Assembly: GCA_951394045.1 (NCBI GenBank)
Contig: OX595985.1
Location: forward strand, 1,054,001 to 1,118,000
Reading direction: 5' to 3'
Source of the DNA: Nitzschia sp. DOCU1
Lineage: Eukaryota > Bacillariophyta > Bacillariophyceae > Bacillariales > Bacillariaceae
DNA: 64,000 nt
Both the position numbers and the translations under genes were made by a program. Shown in pieces: positions 54,219-64,000 of the stretch. The notes under the pieces are model-generated. The model did no database searches. It was not told the DNA's origin and worked only from the letters and a program-made list of their open reading frames with translations. Within the stretch, counting starts at the first letter, position 1. Every line of letters starts with the position of its first letter.

Positions 54219-54809
54219 GATTTTTGAGTAGCTCGATCTAGGGTCGTCGAATGAGAAAGGAGTCGGACGCTGATTCCAAAACGGGGAGAGAGATCAAAGG
54301 GACTGGCGTATATGGGGAATTTCGTTTGATGTTGCAACTTGTTTCGACAATGCTTCTACCTATGTGTATCTGATACTATGTTTACCAAAGTGTCATGAAC
54401 GTTAGCGGGGTAGTTATTTTATTTTTATGAGCTTCATAAAGTGAAAATAAAATTTGATGAATCATTGAAACTGAACTGAGAGCTTAACGTCCACATACTC
54501 TCTCTACTACTAGAGATGAAGCCGCTACCATCTTAAAAGAGTGCATGGACCAGTCGAGTCAGTCGCATTTCGTAGAAGATTAGGGGGTTCCTATCGACCG
54601 TAGTGAATTCGTGGGGGAATCGAACCCCTTTTCAGAACGCGCATTTCTCGCGCGTAGTAGTGGAAGGATATTCTGTGTGCTGGCAAAATCGAGCGAACCA
54701 AAACGACGACTGTCGAAGCACCCTTCATCACTCTCCGCCTCTGTCGATTGGTGTCGGAGACTGTTCACTTCTACAACCGTGGAAACACCGGCACTCGCTG
54801 CCTTGGAGC
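54219..54809. other. Intergenic region with a T-arm-like tRNA fragment
   Basis: 591 nt. Minus strand at about 54610-54628 reads GGGGTTCGATTCCCCC, a T-arm shape, next to a GCGCG hairpin, but no acceptor or anticodon arm fits around it. No gene otherwise. Confidence 0.35.
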
Positions 54810-55727
54810 ATGTTGCGACGGTCTTTATCGCAGTTGAAGAATCAAAATAATCGATTGTTTAGAATGGCGTCGTCAAATGTCAACGAGCCTTCGGAATATT
54901 CTTGGGTCTCTCGCCTGAGCATTAGGGAGATGAAGGAGATAGTTCGCGGAATGCCAGAAGAAAAGAGTTGTTTCGAAAGAGCTGATTTGGAAAAGTTGGT
55001 CGCAAGCAAGTTCCAGTCGATGGAAGAGTACAAGTCGAGTCGGAACGGTGAGCCAGCCACTTCTACAAATCCTGACAGCCTCGAGGCACTAAAGACAAGA
55101 ATCCAAACAGTGCTGTCGCAAGACCGAGGAGCATTGAATTTTGAACACTATACGCCAGGAAGAGAGCACCAGGAACGAATGAAGAAACTTGCCAAGCTTG
55201 CGCCAGAAGTGTATGACAATCCCGATATAACTCCACGGTCCCAATGGTTCAGGCACCCTCGGTGGAGGCAGAATAGCCAAATGCCCCCATACCACGTCCA
55301 TTTTCGGGACGAGATGCAAGATGTTCTGCGATACTTGTACCAGGCATACACCGCCCAAGACTCCTCGCATCAATGGCAGCAACTTAGACATGCTGTTTCC
55401 ATCTTTCATGGATCCATGCGGGGCCTCAGTGGCCACGTTAGTATCGAAGAATATGCTTGCTTCCCTGTGTACCAGCGGCTCTACCCGCACGTCGATATCC
55501 GATTTTTGTATACAGATCACAAGGATTTGCACAGAGCGGAGCAAGGGGCCAGCAAAGCTCTCACTCGCTTGGTGGAAGGGCAGAAGACAGCGACTATTTC
55601 TCGAGAGCAAATTCTGGAAACCCTGAAAGTGCTCCTGGACTTTGATGATCATCTTATGGCTCATCTCGGGGAAGAGGAGGAAATAGTTGTGCCGATGTCC
55701 CTGACTGAGAAAACCATCCACTTTTAA
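54810..55727 (+). CDS. Hemerythrin (HHE) domain protein
   Basis: Single exon, 305 aa from the ATG at 54810, the first ATG in the frame. Residues 1-20 (MLRRSLSQLKNQNNRLFRM) resemble a mitochondrial presequence. Residues ~30-70 hold a helical SAP-like element (WVSRLSIREMKEIVRGM). Residues ~160-300 carry a four-helix HHE pattern: SGHVSIEEYACFPVYQRL, FLYTDHKDLHRAE, LLDFDDHLMAHLGEEEEIVV. The His and Glu spacing suits a di-iron site. Such proteins sense or buffer oxygen, NO or iron; the exact role is unknown. Confidence 0.78.
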   Translation: MLRRSLSQLKNQNNRLFRMASSNVNEPSEYSWVSRLSIREMKEIVRGMPEEKSCFERADLEKLVASKFQSMEEYKSSRNGEPATSTNPDSLEALKTRIQTVLSQDRGALNFEHYTPGREHQERMKKLAKLAPEVYDNPDITPRSQWFRHPRWRQNSQMPPYHVHFRDEMQDVLRYLYQAYTAQDSSHQWQQLRHAVSIFHGSMRGLSGHVSIEEYACFPVYQRLYPHVDIRFLYTDHKDLHRAEQGASKALTRLVEGQKTATISREQILETLKVLLDFDDHLMAHLGEEEEIVVPMSLTEKTIHF

Positions 55728-56465: not shown

Positions 56466-59400
56466 ATGCCGCCCCAGGATGGCATTGCGATGACGACGGA
56501 AGAAGCATGTGCTGGTGCTTTTGAGCAGCCTCCAGAAAAGTCCTTCATCGTCGACAATAACAATGCCAATGACGATGGCACCTGGCAGCCACCGTCCGCA
56601 CGATGGCGCCAATGCAAGCGCAACCAGCACTGTGACACCTCTCACGACAACGAGTCTCGGGACTCGAACAAGCATCACTTGCAGGAAGACAATGAGGCCG
56701 AGAATATGGACTGGGTTTGTGCCGAGTGCAATGAGGCGGAATGCTTGGTAGACCCCAGCCCCGAGTTATTATTGTATTGCGACGGAGCCTGTCGCCGTAC
56801 CTTTCATTTACCATGCGCAGGCTTGTCTCAGGTTCCTTGTAAAGACGAAGATTGGATCTGCAAAGACTGTACTGGATCGCGGCATCGATGTGCCTTTTGT
56901 GAAGAGTACGGGAAAGATAATGTGGATGTTTTCGGCTGCAGCAAGGATCATTGTGGACTCTTCTTTCATGAATCTTGTCTAGCATTGAATGATGTTCCTG
57001 TCAAAAAGATGGAACAACCGGTTACTCGCAATGTCAGTCCGAGGAGTGTCGAAGAGGGTGCCATTAGTAGCACTAATTGTGCGGTTCCTTCCTTTATTTG
57101 TCCGGCACATCATTGCTGGACGTGCACGCAAAAAGATGCTCTTGAGAAGGAACAAAAAGAAGACGAGGCCGAGAAGAAACGCGGCAAGAAAAAGCAAACG
57201 AGCATTTATCAATGCAGGAAGGATGGCCGCCTCCATGTAAGATTTATTTGTTGTTGGATTTGCTTCTTGAGTTGTGTCGTGCTGTGCATCGTTCCACGTA
57301 CTAAACAACTCGCTGTTTTCATTTCGTTAAAGCGCTGCTTGTATTGTCCTTGGGCGTACCACGTGGATTGTTTGCCTCCAACCAGTCAAGTGAATGAGTT
57401 GGCCATTTTGTGCCCAGAACATTCCATGACGAAAAAGCTTCCAGATCTAGATCCTTCCACTTCCGTGCAAGCCGAGGTGGAGGATAAGATTGATCGAAGA
57501 ATACTAAAGCTGTGTGGACAAGCAAGCTTTTGTCGGCAGCTGCCAAGCGGTCTGGCTGGTGGTCGAAGAGGAGGCATTGTCGAAGAGGAGGCATTGCCTT
57601 TGCCCTTTTGCGTCCCCGCAGACATACTAGCGGCGGTGTACTCCCGACCCGCGGGCAATAACAGGAACAAAAAAGCAAAATTTGGTGTTCCTCAAAAGAA
57701 ACGAGAGCCACCAGCAAGAAAAAGCCGTGTGGCGAAAAAGAAATCTTTTTCTTGTGCTCTAGGGGCTAAAATGCCAGCAAAAATATCCCATGCGAAAGTC
57801 ACGCCCAAGGCTAAAGCAAAAGGCAGGAGTGCTCCTCAAAAGAACCGAAAGCTATCGGCAAAGAAAGGCCTTGTAGTGAAGAAATCTTTGAAAGACTGCA
57901 AGGATAAAGAAGGTCGCTCTCGTCCTCTACTGGCTGGAAAGCTAGCAAAGAAACGATCCCCTGCCAAAGCCACGCCCAACGCCAACGCAAAAGTCAGGAG
58001 TGTTCCTCAAAAGAACCGAAAGCCATCGGCAAAGAAAGGCCTTGTAGTGAAGACATCTTTGAAAGACTGCATGGATAAAGAAGGTCGCTCTCGTCCTCTA
58101 CTGGCTGGAAAGCCAGCAAAGAAACGATCCCATGCCAAAGCCACGCCCAAGGCCAACGCAAAAGTCAAGAGTGTTCCTCAAAAGGACCGAAAGCCACGAC
58201 CGGCAAAGGAAAGCTGTTTGAAAGACTGCATGAGTAAAGACAGTCGCTCTCGTCCTCTACCGGCTGGAAAGCCAGCAAAGAAGCTATCCCATGCCAAAGC
58301 CAGGCCCAAGGCTAAAGCAAAAGTCAAGAGTGTTCCTCAAAAGGACCGACCGGCAAAGAAAACCCGTGTGGTGAAGAAATCTTTGAAAGCCTGTCCTCTA
58401 GGGGCTGGAAAGCCTGCAAGGGGATTCCATGGGAAACTCACGCCCAATGCTAGAGTATCGCCCAACCAAGAAATGGCGGTGGAGCGTATCGTCGCTACCA
58501 TCCAGACGTATGACGCCAACACGAAAAGATGGAGCAGTCGAGACACATTGTTTTCGGCTCCCACGAGCTCGCAAGGCGCTGGAAAATGTTTGGAGAAGAA
58601 GTTGCATCGAGGCGGAACCATTAAGATTTATCCTTCCATGCTATCCGAGACTGAACTGACGGATGTTTCGAACGATTTGCTGAGTGACGAGGGCGCAGGC
58701 TTCTTTCGGCAGTACAGGATCCAAGGAGACGATGAGCCCCGCTGCCATTTTCATATGCACAAACATGCCACGCCCAACTTTGAAGATCCACAGCCTGGTT
58801 ATGCGTATATGGGTAAACAGATCAAGATGAAGAGCATCCCATTAGCCAATTTTGGTGGAGTTGCGAAAGTGTCACAGAGAATGGCGGAAACTTGTGATGT
58901 TGCTGAATGGACTACTGGTGTCCATGCCGTGTTGTACCGAGATTCCAAAGACAAGATGGGTTTCCATGCTGGTAAGCTTTTTAGAGGGGCGTTCCGAAAT
59001 CCATGATAGAAGACTGACACCATGCCTATTTCTCAATCCATTTTGTCTGACGGCAACAAAGACAACGACCAAGGTGAACAGCTTATTCTGGCTGCAGTAA
59101 TCAAAATGCCTACTAGGCAGATTCGTGTCGTTCGGGTTCGGCCAAGCTCAGGAGTAGAACTCCAACACGGAGATGAAGATATCGAGCTGTTTCTTGAAGC
59201 AGGTAGGTCTAGTGTGCGATTGATATGCATTATTTTACAACTGATGTCTTCTAACGATTCATGCGCTCAATTTTTCAGGGGACGGCTATTCCATGGATGG
59301 TAAGAGCGCCTTTTAGTCTGTGGTACTGCGTGCGATTGTAGCTCACTTGTGTTTTGACTTCCAGGTGAAATGCAAAAGCACTATTTTCATGGTGTGGCTG

Positions 59401-60224
59401 ATGCGCGAGGGCCAAAACGTCGGGTGCTTACCACAGCCGAGCCACAAACGCCCAAACCAACAAGGTCTAGTGATGCCGCTCCAATTACCCCCTCCCCGAT
59501 TGCAATGGGGAATTCTTTTACCGGTGCTGCCGTTGGAGGATCAGAAACTCAACGAGCCATGCCCCGCGGATCCGAAGTCAATGCCGAAGCCGAGGACGAT
59601 AGGCGGCTGGTCCTTGTCTTCCGCAAGGGGAAAAAGGTTGTATTTAAAAACGACACTGGTGTTGCATGTGATACTCTGGCACCGAGGAAAGGTCGTTACA
59701 ATCGGTTTGGCCAAATTCCAGGCTTGGACGAGGGCAAGTGCTACATCCGATATGAAATGATGACTCTGAATGGCCATATCATGGCACAACGTGGCATATC
59801 CGGCAACAAGGATTTTGGCTGCGACGCCATGATTGTGTCGGGCAAAAGACCGGACAATTTGGGGCATGACAAACTGTTTAACCTCGAGTACTTCGTTGAG
59901 CAAAGCAAGGGGGCACTTGGAGTTGTGAAGAGCTATGAACTTGGCAAGCCAATTCGTGTTTTTCGACCAGAGGACTCCAACTATCACGAGCTCCAAGCCA
60001 TTGGCCCCCACCCAAAATTTGGAATTACGACCTGCTATCGCTATGATGGGCTGTATTTTGTAACGGACAAGGAGGAACCCAAAGAAAAGAATGGGCCTTG
60101 GAAGTTTAAGCTTGAAAGAGCGTCATCCAAGAACAAGATTTCCAATGACCTTTATATTGAACACTGCATTGCGATGGGAACGATGAGGGATGAAGCAAAA
60201 AAGCTTATATCAGCCTGCACCTGA
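56466..60224 (+). CDS. PHD-finger / AlkB-type dioxygenase / SRA-domain fusion protein
   Basis: Five exons: 56466-57236, 57333-58971, 59062-59202, 59279-59299 and 59365-60224; introns of 96, 90, 76 and 65 nt; 1143 aa. Residues ~85-135 are a PHD finger; ~142-290 form an extended PHD-like Cys/His cluster that is completed across intron 1 (RLH/RCLYCPWAYH). A Lys/Ala/Pro-rich region (~365-570) contains 57-residue tandem repeats. Residues ~640-880 match an AlkB-type Fe(II)/2-oxoglutarate dioxygenase: GVHAVLYRDSKDKMGFHADN (H802-x-D804), GDGYSMDGEMQKHYFHGV (distal H866) and RR876-877. Residues ~965-1110 form an SRA/YDG domain (MIVSGKRPDNLGHD, KPIRVFRP, YRYDGLYFV, WKFKLER). Likely a nuclear enzyme acting on modified DNA or chromatin; the substrate is not shown by sequence. 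Confidence 0.88.
57834..58400 (+). repeat. 171-bp coding tandem repeat (57 aa unit)
   Basis: The phase-locked start CCTCAAAAG recurs at 57834, 58005, 58176 and 58335, i.e. periods of 171, 171 and 159 nt. Each unit codes NRKPSAKKGLVVK, SLKDC, RSRPLLAGKPAKK and HAKATPKANAKV-like segments. The unit is Lys-rich like histone H1 tails. The repeat is in frame with the PHD/AlkB/SRA protein. Confidence 0.85.
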
Positions 60225-61536: not shown

Positions 61537-64000
61537 ATGAGTGAGGCTTGCGTCATCATTGTGAGTACATATTCCGCAGGATCCCGGCCAGCACTGAAGC
61601 ACTACAGACATCCAATCGATCTCACGAGAGCCATCATTTATCCTACATTTTTGAGTGACGACGACCATGAGGATTGGTCCGGGACGTACATTTCGGCGAT
61701 GAGCCTGATGGTGGAGTCAGAGGGAAGATTGATCAGAGGTACTTGTCGCTGCCTCTTGTTGCGAAATGACCAGGCGACATCGAGGCGAAGGCGTCGACCC
61801 GTACCAGGAGGAGTATCGGGTGAGACCAAAGAAGCCCTTGGATTTTCGTTTCCTGCCGCTGCAATCGTTACAGACCGCGACGACAATTTATGGCTCTGTC
61901 GTTGGAGCAGTTCTGGTTGCATTCTGGACGCTGGAAGAATCCTTTGCTTTCAGAGATCCACTTTGATCCATGCGATTGATTCGCAGCAGTCGGCGTCTTG
62001 GATAGCCGTATCGACGCTTGTTGCTGGTAGAGCGTCCAACCTACTGTCAACTTGGGGCCATGAACCAACTACAGAAGTGACTGCATGCTCGGATTCTCAC
62101 AATCATGCTAAGATTCAGCGATGCCTGCTTCCAGGAGAGTCTGCCATGGACGTTTCGGGGCGTTTGCTGGGCATTGGCGTACCTCCTGTGCCTCTACTGT
62201 CGCTAGTTGTCAGGCCTGTGGGCAGGACAGACTTTTCTCCGACTCCATTGCAACAGGCTTCTTGGAAACGACAATTGGCTGGACGTCTTTTGCTATTCTA
62301 CGCCGGGAAGTACACTTGTACAGTAGTAGTCGGGGATTCTGACGAGAATCAAATGCGCTTGACCGTGGTATCGGTAGCAGCACGATGCATTTCGGATCAG
62401 GCACTCTATATTGTACTCCCAAGTACTCGTATATCTCTCGAGGTGCCGGTGCTTGATGTCGATGCACAAAAAGCTAATGACATTGCGCCAACAATGCCCC
62501 AGGTGCCTCTTGGTGCATCGCCAATCACCCAATTACTTTTATATACTGCCACTTGTGTGCGTCAGGGCATTCCTGTACCACGAACTTTCTTACTGAGTGG
62601 CCCAGCAGGTGTTGGAAAGACACATTCAGTACGTCAAACTTTGGATCTCTGCCCATTTCCCGTCAAGCTAGTGTCCTTGAGAGGTTCAGAGGTCGTGCAG
62701 CAGCATTCCAACAGTGCACACGCCCTTGAGCAGCAGTTTGAGCGGGCTGCGGCAAATGCTCCTGGCGAGAAAAAGGTCACGGTAGTATTCTTGGACGAAT
62801 GCGATGCGTTGGTGAGCGTCGATACTATAGCGGCGATGCTAGCAACTCTGCTAGACAAGGTGGCTTTTCAATGGGCCAACATGGTAGTGGTCGGGGCTAC
62901 CAATCGCATCGATAGTATCCCCGGCTACTTGCGTCGAGCAGGACGATTCGATAAGGAGATTCCGTTGATGCCACCGAATGCCAAGGAGCGCGCGGCTATA
63001 CTTTGGAGCATTTTACAGGAGGTGCAACCCAGTGAAGCATTCACAAAGCAAGCTCTGCAGAGGGAGGTCCAACGGATTGCTGAGCTCTGTGTTGGGTATG
63101 TTGCTGCGGATTTGAATGCGCTTGTACACAAGACTTCCTTGCTCGTAGCTCAACGTGAAGGTGCCGAAAGCCTTTTGATGATTCATTTGCTAGAAACGGC
63201 AATGTCTGAAGTGGGGCCGTCTGCCTTACGGGATGCATCTCTATCCTCTCCACCCACAATCACGTGGGACGATATAGCTGGGGATCCGGGAGGTGCCAAG
63301 ACAGCCTTACGGCAGGCCATTGAATGGCCGCGGATCAAGGCTGAATCCTTTGCGAGGTTGGGCCTTGTACCACCTAGGGGCATACTCCTACATGGCCCAC
63401 CTGGGTGTGCGAAAACCACCTTGGCCCGAGCAGCCGCTGGTGCATCGGCAGTGGCCTTTTTGAGTCTTAGCCCAGCCGAAGTATATGCTTCGAGTTATGT
63501 CGGTGAAGCCGAAGCGGTGGTGCGACGAGCCTTTGCGCTTGCACGATCGGCGGCACCATGTATTTTGTTCTTTGACGAAATGGACTCAATCTTTGGAGGA
63601 ATCCAAGGTGGAGGTCGTGGCAGCTCTGCGGAGGCAAGAGTACTTTCGACGTTTCTGAATGAAATGGATGGCGTTGACAATCAAAGAGGTGCAGATGGTG
63701 TTCTGGTATTGGGAGCGACGAATCGCCCATGGACCTTGGACTCGGCCCTTATGCGTCCTGGTCGACTTGGGGATAAAATCATCTACATACCTCCGCCAGA
63801 TGCCACTGCTCGTCGCTCTATTTTGGAAATGCAGTTTCAAGGATTGTCCAAGGATATGGATTTCGATTTCCTCGCCAACGATGACATGACAGGTCTCATG
63901 ACGGGTGCCGAACTCGTTGGCGCCTGCCAAGAGGCAAAGTTTCGAATGTTGCGCAGTGCCATTGAATCGGGCAATGATATTATTTCATCATTTTCAGCCT
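61537..64000 (+). CDS. AFG2/SPATA5-type tandem AAA ATPase (truncated by window end)
   Basis: Open from the ATG at 61537 to base 64000 with no stop, so the C-terminus lies outside; 821 residues are visible. About 300 N-terminal residues lack a recognised fold. The first AAA module has GPAGVGKTHSV, VVFLDECDAL and an SRH arginine block (GATNRIDSIPGYLRRAGRF). The second has GPPGCAKTTLARAAA, ILFFDEMDSIFGG and ATNRPWTLDSALMRPGRL followed by IIYIPPPD, typical of AFG2 and its SPATA5L1 relative. Such proteins release assembly factors from pre-60S ribosomes. Both Walker B Glu residues are kept. Confidence 0.85.
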   Translation, partial: MSEACVIIVSTYSAGSRPALKHYRHPIDLTRAIIYPTFLSDDDHEDWSGTYISAMSLMVESEGRLIRGTCRCLLLRNDQATSRRRRRPVPGGVSGETKEALGFSFPAAAIVTDRDDNLWLCRWSSSGCILDAGRILCFQRSTLIHAIDSQQSASWIAVSTLVAGRASNLLSTWGHEPTTEVTACSDSHNHAKIQRCLLPGESAMDVSGRLLGIGVPPVPLLSLVVRPVGRTDFSPTPLQQASWKRQLAGRLLLFYAGKYTCTVVVGDSDENQMRLTVVSVAARCISDQALYIVLPSTRISLEVPVLDVDAQKANDIAPTMPQVPLGASPITQLLLYTATCVRQGIPVPRTFLLSGPAGVGKTHSVRQTLDLCPFPVKLVSLRGSEVVQQHSNSAHALEQQFERAAANAPGEKKVTVVFLDECDALVSVDTIAAMLATLLDKVAFQWANMVVVGATNRIDSIPGYLRRAGRFDKEIPLMPPNAKERAAILWSILQEVQPSEAFTKQALQREVQRIAELCVGYVAADLNALVHKTSLLVAQREGAESLLMIHLLETAMSEVGPSALRDASLSSPPTITWDDIAGDPGGAKTALRQAIEWPRIKAESFARLGLVPPRGILLHGPPGCAKTTLARAAAGASAVAFLSLSPAEVYASSYVGEAEAVVRRAFALARSAAPCILFFDEMDSIFGGIQGGGRGSSAEARVLSTFLNEMDGVDNQRGADGVLVLGATNRPWTLDSALMRPGRLGDKIIYIPPPDATARRSILEMQFQGLSKDMDFDFLANDDMTGLMTGAELVGACQEAKFRMLRSAIESGNDIISSFSA

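Follow-up and report, generated by a model that had tools for sequence, protein, structure and literature searches.

An AlkB-type oxygenase joined to an SRA domain and NSD-type PHD fingers in the diatom Nitzschia sp. DOCU1

The DNA considered here is a 64,000-nt stretch of the genome of the diatom Nitzschia sp. DOCU1 (contig OX595985.1, positions 1,054,001 to 1,118,000), referred to below as the window. A gene on its + strand (56466..60224) encodes a protein in which NSD-type PHD fingers, an AlkB-type 2-oxoglutarate (2OG)-Fe(II) oxygenase and an SRA domain are joined in one chain. SRA domains are known as readers of methylated DNA. Judged from sequence and modelled structure, the protein is probably a DNA oxygenase of the ALKBH2/3 type that would be directed to methylated DNA.

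One chain with PHD, AlkB and SRA domains

The gene model has 1143 amino acids (aa) in five exons (56466-57236, 57333-58971, 59062-59202, 59279-59299 and 59365-60224; + strand, as for all window features below). Rebuilt from these exons, the spliced translation was found to be open, with GT-AG borders at 4/4 introns, and the 1143-aa model of the original prediction was recovered. The whole protein was scanned against Pfam, with matches listed to E 1. PHD, 2OG-FeII_Oxy_2 and SAD_SRA, the families for which a profile check had been proposed, all scored over the Pfam cut-off. RING, ubiquitin-like and SET domains were not among these matches, nor was Tet_JBP (PF12851), and an NCBIfam scan gave no match. 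Exon 2 is an uninterrupted open stretch connecting the third PHD finger with the histidine of the HxD motif, and exon 5 spans from the distal histidine through the RxxxxxR motif to the end of the SRA domain. Because these two exons each bridge domain parts, no single mis-set intron is able to make the fusion. Introns 2-4 have GT-AG borders in 5/5 AlkB-SRA copies of the genome, and beyond the linker all five have frames that stay open to the C-terminus, with the same three introns. The open reading frame of a transcript from MMETSP (P0065) holds a partial AlkB domain together with the SRA domain. The earlier claim that a PHD reader, an AlkB-type oxygenase and an SRA domain share one chain is thus borne out by Pfam, the exon layout, the paralogues and P0065. 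On this sequence evidence the link between the three is genuine and no gene-model artefact.

The prediction of a PHD reader held in kind and failed in number, as three PHD fingers are present where one had been described. Pfam PHD matches the protein in three stretches, over cut-off (whole-protein E 1.7e-5). The first finger (aa 84-135; 56715..56870; best Pfam PHD stretch 96-135) is, taken alone, the weakest of the Pfam domain matches, and its PHD-1st_NSD match (aa 98-135; E 6.6e-6) falls slightly under the cut-off (26.6 against 27 bits). The second finger is of the NSD type (aa 139-215; 56880..57110; PHD_NSD, E 2.4e-9). The third is of the variant NSD type (aa 255-288; 57228..57425; PHDvar_NSD, E 7.8e-7) and is interrupted by intron 1 (57237-57332). 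PHD_NSD and PHDvar_NSD stand in tandem, both over cut-off, which marks the region as an NSD-type PHD module. Between the PHD and AlkB parts sits a lysine-rich linker, whose coding sequence is a tandem repeat of 171 bp in 3.7 copies (57785..58393; Tandem Repeats Finder).

The AlkB-type domain spans aa 688-944 across introns 2-4 (58623..59624). Its extent is given by Pfam to aa 874 (2OG-FeII_Oxy_2, PF13532, aa 688-874; E 2.4e-13; 51.2 bits against a cut-off of 31.2) and by alignment for the rest. The iron ligands H802-x-D804 (58965..59063, the D804 codon being split by intron 2, 58972-59061) and the distal ligand H866 (59388..59390) were confirmed in the rebuilt translation at the positions predicted earlier. 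Among 91 homologues they are unreplaced wherever covered: the HxD histidine is kept in 76/76, the aspartate in 78/78 and the distal histidine in 77/77. Each arginine of the 2OG motif R938xxxxxR944 (59604..59624), invariant in alignment A4, is kept in 79/79. H866 and R938 are 71 residues apart, against 15 in homologue P0001. The stretch between them (aa 867-937; 59391..59603) is mostly an insert, with a near-neutral ratio of nonsynonymous to synonymous substitution rates (dN/dS) and a predicted local distance difference test score (pLDDT) <50 in a model of exon 5. The second 2OG arginine had seemed to be missing, given the sequence RRVLTTAE soon after H866; this was rejected when the homologue alignment placed RxxxxxR after the insert. 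By alignment, the AlkB domain is complete for its Fe(II) and 2OG residues.

In the AlphaFold2 model of a homologue, the AlkB part has a double-stranded beta-helix fold that is nearest to human ALKBH2 and ALKBH3. Matches in PDB for this part were obtained with the family profile only, and phmmer with the AlkB region of the window protein alone gave no PDB match to E 1. The AlkB-SRA family has about 20% identity to ALKBH2/ALKBH3 and differs from them in its fused SRA domain, its signature HxDxxQxE and a variable insert before RxxxxxR. With TET/JBP the window protein has 2OG-Fe(II) chemistry in common and possibly the oxidation of 5-methylcytosine (5mC), although it is of the AlkB type.

A diatom family and its copies in one genome

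The AlkB-SRA core recurs in other diatoms. Three protein searches returned overlapping sets of 33, 15 and 76 proteins; for the latter two, the candidates sharing the most words were scored. Both Pfam domains are found in 26/33 proteins of the first search. Of the 91 homologues, 63 align over the histidine of HxD as well as the YDG aspartate of the SRA domain, while 13 cover AlkB only, 13 SRA only and 2 neither. Named members come from Cylindrotheca closterium (in which two AlkB-SRA genes were found), Nitzschia sp. Nitz4, a Bacillariaceae metagenome-assembled genome, Mayamaea pseudoterrestris, Epithemia clementina and Amphora coffeaeformis. Reading of labels adds Pseudo-nitzschia (Psemu1) and Cyclotella cryptica (CCRYP, P0043), and the named AlkB-SRA members include pennate and centric diatoms. 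In a quick tree, the five copies of the Nitzschia sp. DOCU1 genome form one clade (support 100), adjacent to a Nitzschia protein (87) whose long branch leaves its placement unsure.

Some relatives carry other domains. An SGF29-type Tudor domain stands at the C-terminus of AlkB-SRA relatives P0019 and P0040 (Mayamaea). P0089 has a C-terminal PHD finger and PWWP domain with a sub-threshold SRA match, and only the last AlkB strand was recognized in it, by eye. From their sequences, the Tudor and PHD-PWWP readers apparently represent separate pairings with histone readers. The Amphora member carries DUF6824. By eye, the N-termini of P0010 and P0012 seemed to hold a zinc finger of the CW type, for which Pfam gave no match to E 0.1. 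A viral origin was also considered and rejected. In one IMG/VR scan 5/19 pattern matches were confirmed, all five SRA only (query residues 258-453), and no viral AlkB-SRA protein was found. The parts of the protein are known and the AlkB-SRA combination is apparently undescribed, with databases already showing both domains on some members; the JGI name of homologue P0063 is 'SAD/SRA domain/2OG-Fe(II) oxygenase superfamily'. Among the matches listed, no description of the fusion was found in titles and abstract starts of the open-access literature, a set that leaves subscription comparative genomics mostly outside. SRA and AlkB are absent from the main text of a survey of diatom DNMTs (PMC9998398).

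In the Nitzschia sp. DOCU1 genome, which comprises 52.1 Mb in 63 contigs, five SRA matches were found (5/5 candidates scored), all inside AlkB-SRA genes: the window gene, L006, L007, L008 and L009, with L007 being the oldest copy. Compared with L007, the window gene has a dN/dS of 0.27 in the AlkB core, 0.27 in the RxxxxxR strand, 0.48 in the SRA domain and 1.26 in the insert (taken over aa 868-934). The corresponding ranges for the other three copies are 0.24-0.26, 0.20-0.27, 0.35-0.47 and 0.95-1.26. This contrast indicates that the AlkB and SRA domains are under purifying selection and that the insert is not. The five copies lie in segmental duplications of unequal extent. Their spread as a transposon, in one mobile unit, was rejected because the ends of the duplicated block differ per copy; terminal repeats were not searched. 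The AlkB-SRA part of the window gene is closest to L009 (synonymous divergence, dS, 0.030) and L006 (dS 0.036), and its PHD exon is closest to locus L056 (dS 0.10; 0.23 to L006). With different nearest copies for its two parts, the window gene shows a mosaic structure.

Matches to the PHD module occur at six loci of the genome, three of which are AlkB-SRA genes (window, L006 and L008); L007 and L009 are AlkB-SRA genes without it. At L057 (C1:3489000-3498500) the module leads into SET (E 8.7e-25), with AWS matched below threshold, and by these domains L057 encodes a histone methyltransferase of the NSD type. L058 (C1:5398500-5408000) has the same PHD-SET arrangement by eye, and the PHD exons of the two are separated by a dS of 0.118. 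L056 (G000:C1:1144000-1153500, minus strand), located downstream of the window gene at a distance of about 36 kb, has the module followed by BTB/POZ (8.7e-5). As read from these sequences, the NSD-type module occurs on different partners, namely AlkB-SRA, SET and BTB. The start region and intron 1 are common to the PHD loci including the PHD-SET genes, which therefore points to copying at the DNA level. The donor GTAAGATT after the PHD exon is identical in 6/6 PHD loci. The PHD exon is constrained, with a dN/dS of 0.37-0.40 between the window gene and L057/L058. An NSD-type module over cut-off was found in 0/19 scanned AlkB-SRA relatives, P0089 having a different PHD finger with a sub-threshold PHDvar_NSD match. 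Because these relatives are without the module, we infer that the PHD-SET genes were its source and not its recipients. The PHD-SET genes L057 and L058, of the NSD/ASH1 type, have the three PHD fingers, the start region and intron 1 in common with the window gene, and SET where it has AlkB-SRA.

The base pocket and the candidate substrates

The SRA (SAD/YDG) domain lies at aa 971-1110 (59703..60122; Pfam SAD_SRA, PF02182, best stretch, E 8.8e-14). In the AlphaFold2 model of the homologue this part is nearest to TagI and then to UHRF, so that profile and fold both identify an SRA domain. TagI is a bacterial modification-dependent restriction endonuclease, with an endonuclease as the SRA partner where AlkB stands here. 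From the SRA proteins UHRF1/UHRF2 and SUVH, the AlkB-SRA proteins differ by their oxygenase partner and by a remodelled pocket loop. In SUVH5, the flipped base is described in parts of one paper as stacked between Tyr416 and Tyr428 and read by Asp418 (PMC4740795). When the family is aligned to SUVH5, Arg1019 of the window protein takes the position of Tyr416 and Asp1021 that of Asp418, and Tyr1033 is the likely counterpart of Tyr428 after a loop about two residues longer. Alignment A3 shows this aspartate and the later tyrosine to be invariant, with arginine for the first tyrosine, in 9/9 rows, and the loop to be longer. In A2 the R-x-D pattern is seen in 15/25 rows, after removal of one false P0029 match. 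By alignment, then, the pocket wall at Arg1019/Asp1021 varies within the family. The aromatic residue at Tyr1033 is Y in 70, F in 4 and W in 2 of 76 covering homologues, and Asp1026, seven residues before it, is kept in 75/76. Binding of 5mC by this SRA domain is plausible from its sequence. Alternatively, the domain could read a base other than 5mC, be it 5-hydroxymethylcytosine (5hmC) or one with a larger mark, or serve chiefly to grip DNA, with AlkB acting on RNA, another DNA adduct or protein. The remodelled loop, the R-x-D pattern in part of the family and the kept second aromatic would fit such a role. UHRF2 is reported in the same parts of that paper to prefer 5hmC, its pocket being widened by one extra residue in this loop (PMC4740795), and AlkB enzymes have many substrates. 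We regard this alternative as rather improbable.

In the preferred reading, the SRA domain would hold DNA that is methylated or derived from methylation, the PHD fingers, together with the basic linker, would bring the protein to nucleosomes, and a nearby base would be flipped and oxidized by the AlkB domain. By analogy, the main substrate may be N3-methylcytosine (3mC), together with N1-methyladenine (1mA), left by cytosine methyltransferases, an assignment that we put forward tentatively. The SRA domain would then concentrate 3mC/1mA repair on methylated DNA. In portions of one study (PMC9246332), 3mC is described as a product of DNMTs and ALKB2 as co-evolving with DNMT1/3. The genome has seven places matching C5 DNA methylase, of which two are adjacent fragments on C6, and one match looks DNMT2-like by eye. 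Also by eye, the match at L018 is preceded by CCHC-type zinc knuckles, and the frame that holds the one at L024 (885 aa) includes a long run of charged residues.

Several points weigh against this reading. The co-evolution of ALKB2 concerns DNMT1/3, and the methylases of this genome are known as C5 methylase matches, unsorted by class. A search of the genome with PF13532 gave 10 matches, none listed being one of the five AlkB-SRA loci, and these other AlkB genes may already repair 3mC. The five loci were probably missed because introns split the domain. Two of the other AlkB frames, L011 (718 aa) and L016 (957 aa), seemingly have methyltransferase regions, and L016 is ALKBH8-like by eye. The pocket loop, with its arginine for the first tyrosine, is unlike that of known 5mC readers. 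Finally, six young pairs of copies are nearly neutral (dN/dS 0.65-0.90 over the whole AlkB-SRA part; 0.26-0.89 for the AlkB core alone and 0.54-1.08 for SRA alone). Such relaxed ratios, the uneven segmental duplications, the mosaics and the replacement of YQC by YQS at the edge of the third PHD finger in L008 would suit a duplicate that is decaying or selfish and has no function. This is nonetheless very improbable, given the open AlkB-SRA frames with GT-AG introns in all five copies, the constraint on the AlkB core relative to L007 (0.24-0.27) and the catalytic residues that are unreplaced where covered.

The same architecture could serve a TET-like eraser, in which the SRA domain directs AlkB to 5mC for oxidation to 5hmC, 5-formylcytosine or 5-carboxylcytosine. 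Reader and oxygenase share one chain in a conserved family, and the DNA-repair type of AlkB fold, the intact site and the C5 methylase genes fit this role as well as the preferred one. AlkB, ALKBH2 and ALKBH3 can oxidize 5mC according to passages of a review (PMC11065319). In those passages, however, the main DNA substrates of ALKBH2 and ALKBH3 are 1mA and 3mC, with 5mC a lesser one that is listed as minor for ALKBH3 (PMC11065319). Cyclotella cryptica, to which family member P0043 belongs by its CCRYP label, is given about 59% CG methylation in part of another review (PMC9861306). Stress was found to lower 5mC in Haslea ostrearia and to leave 5hmC unchanged, as stated in sections of a third (PMC9033121). 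A profile search of the genome for Tet_JBP gave no match, which would leave room for another 5mC oxidase. No match was found for DME, and the two matches to the uracil-DNA glycosylase family are both of the UNG type by GQDPYH, with no TDG seen, which argues against one. Our genome searches worked exon by exon, and a domain split by introns can escape them. The absences of Tet_JBP, DME and MT-A70 are weak, since the positive controls gave no match and the AlkB search missed the AlkB-SRA loci. Whether an eraser would be TET-independent, as the original prediction held, is unsettled because PMC9033121 contradicts itself, suggesting that 5hmC/TET is absent in diatoms and crediting P. tricornutum with TET homologues on the strength of a thesis. 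A TET-like eraser is possible but doubtful. Equally, it is possible but doubtful that diatoms made a TET-independent, chromatin-directed 5mC oxidase by joining an ALKBH2/3-type AlkB domain to an SRA reader, using the sole SRA domains that the genome search gave, with histone readers gained and lost per lineage. Between the two substrates, the repair of 3mC made by DNMTs has a slight edge over the oxidation of 5mC.

The removal of N6-methyladenine (6mA), which had been proposed beside that of 5mC, is disfavoured. Certain AlkB enzymes act on 6mA, as parts of the review state (PMC11065319). Phaeodactylum tricornutum, however, is described as having 5mC only in portions of a 2025 Nature Genetics paper (PMC12695648), and the genome gave no MT-A70 match, with the weakness noted above. 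A role as a 6mA demethylase would thus be most surprising. There is little sign of methylation-driven CpG loss, the CpG observed/expected ratio being 0.98 for the whole window and 0.83 for the gene alone. By eye from its translation, the upstream neighbour (54603-55727, +) has the look of a hemerythrin-type protein, and by eye from the DNA a downstream stretch (about 62500-64000, +) has that of a tandem AAA+ ATPase running past the window end.

Diatoms methylate their DNA and lose methylation under stress, and how they erase or tolerate cytosine methylation is unsettled. With its conserved AlkB-SRA core, this enzyme offers a direct candidate for erasing or repairing marks on methylated DNA. 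If it repairs 3mC, it would form a physical link between the reading of methylation and the repair of methyltransferase damage. If it oxidizes 5mC, it would represent an independent invention of TET function. The occurrence of one AlkB-SRA core with an NSD-type PHD module, an SGF29-type Tudor domain or PHD and PWWP domains shows evolutionary change in chromatin targeting.

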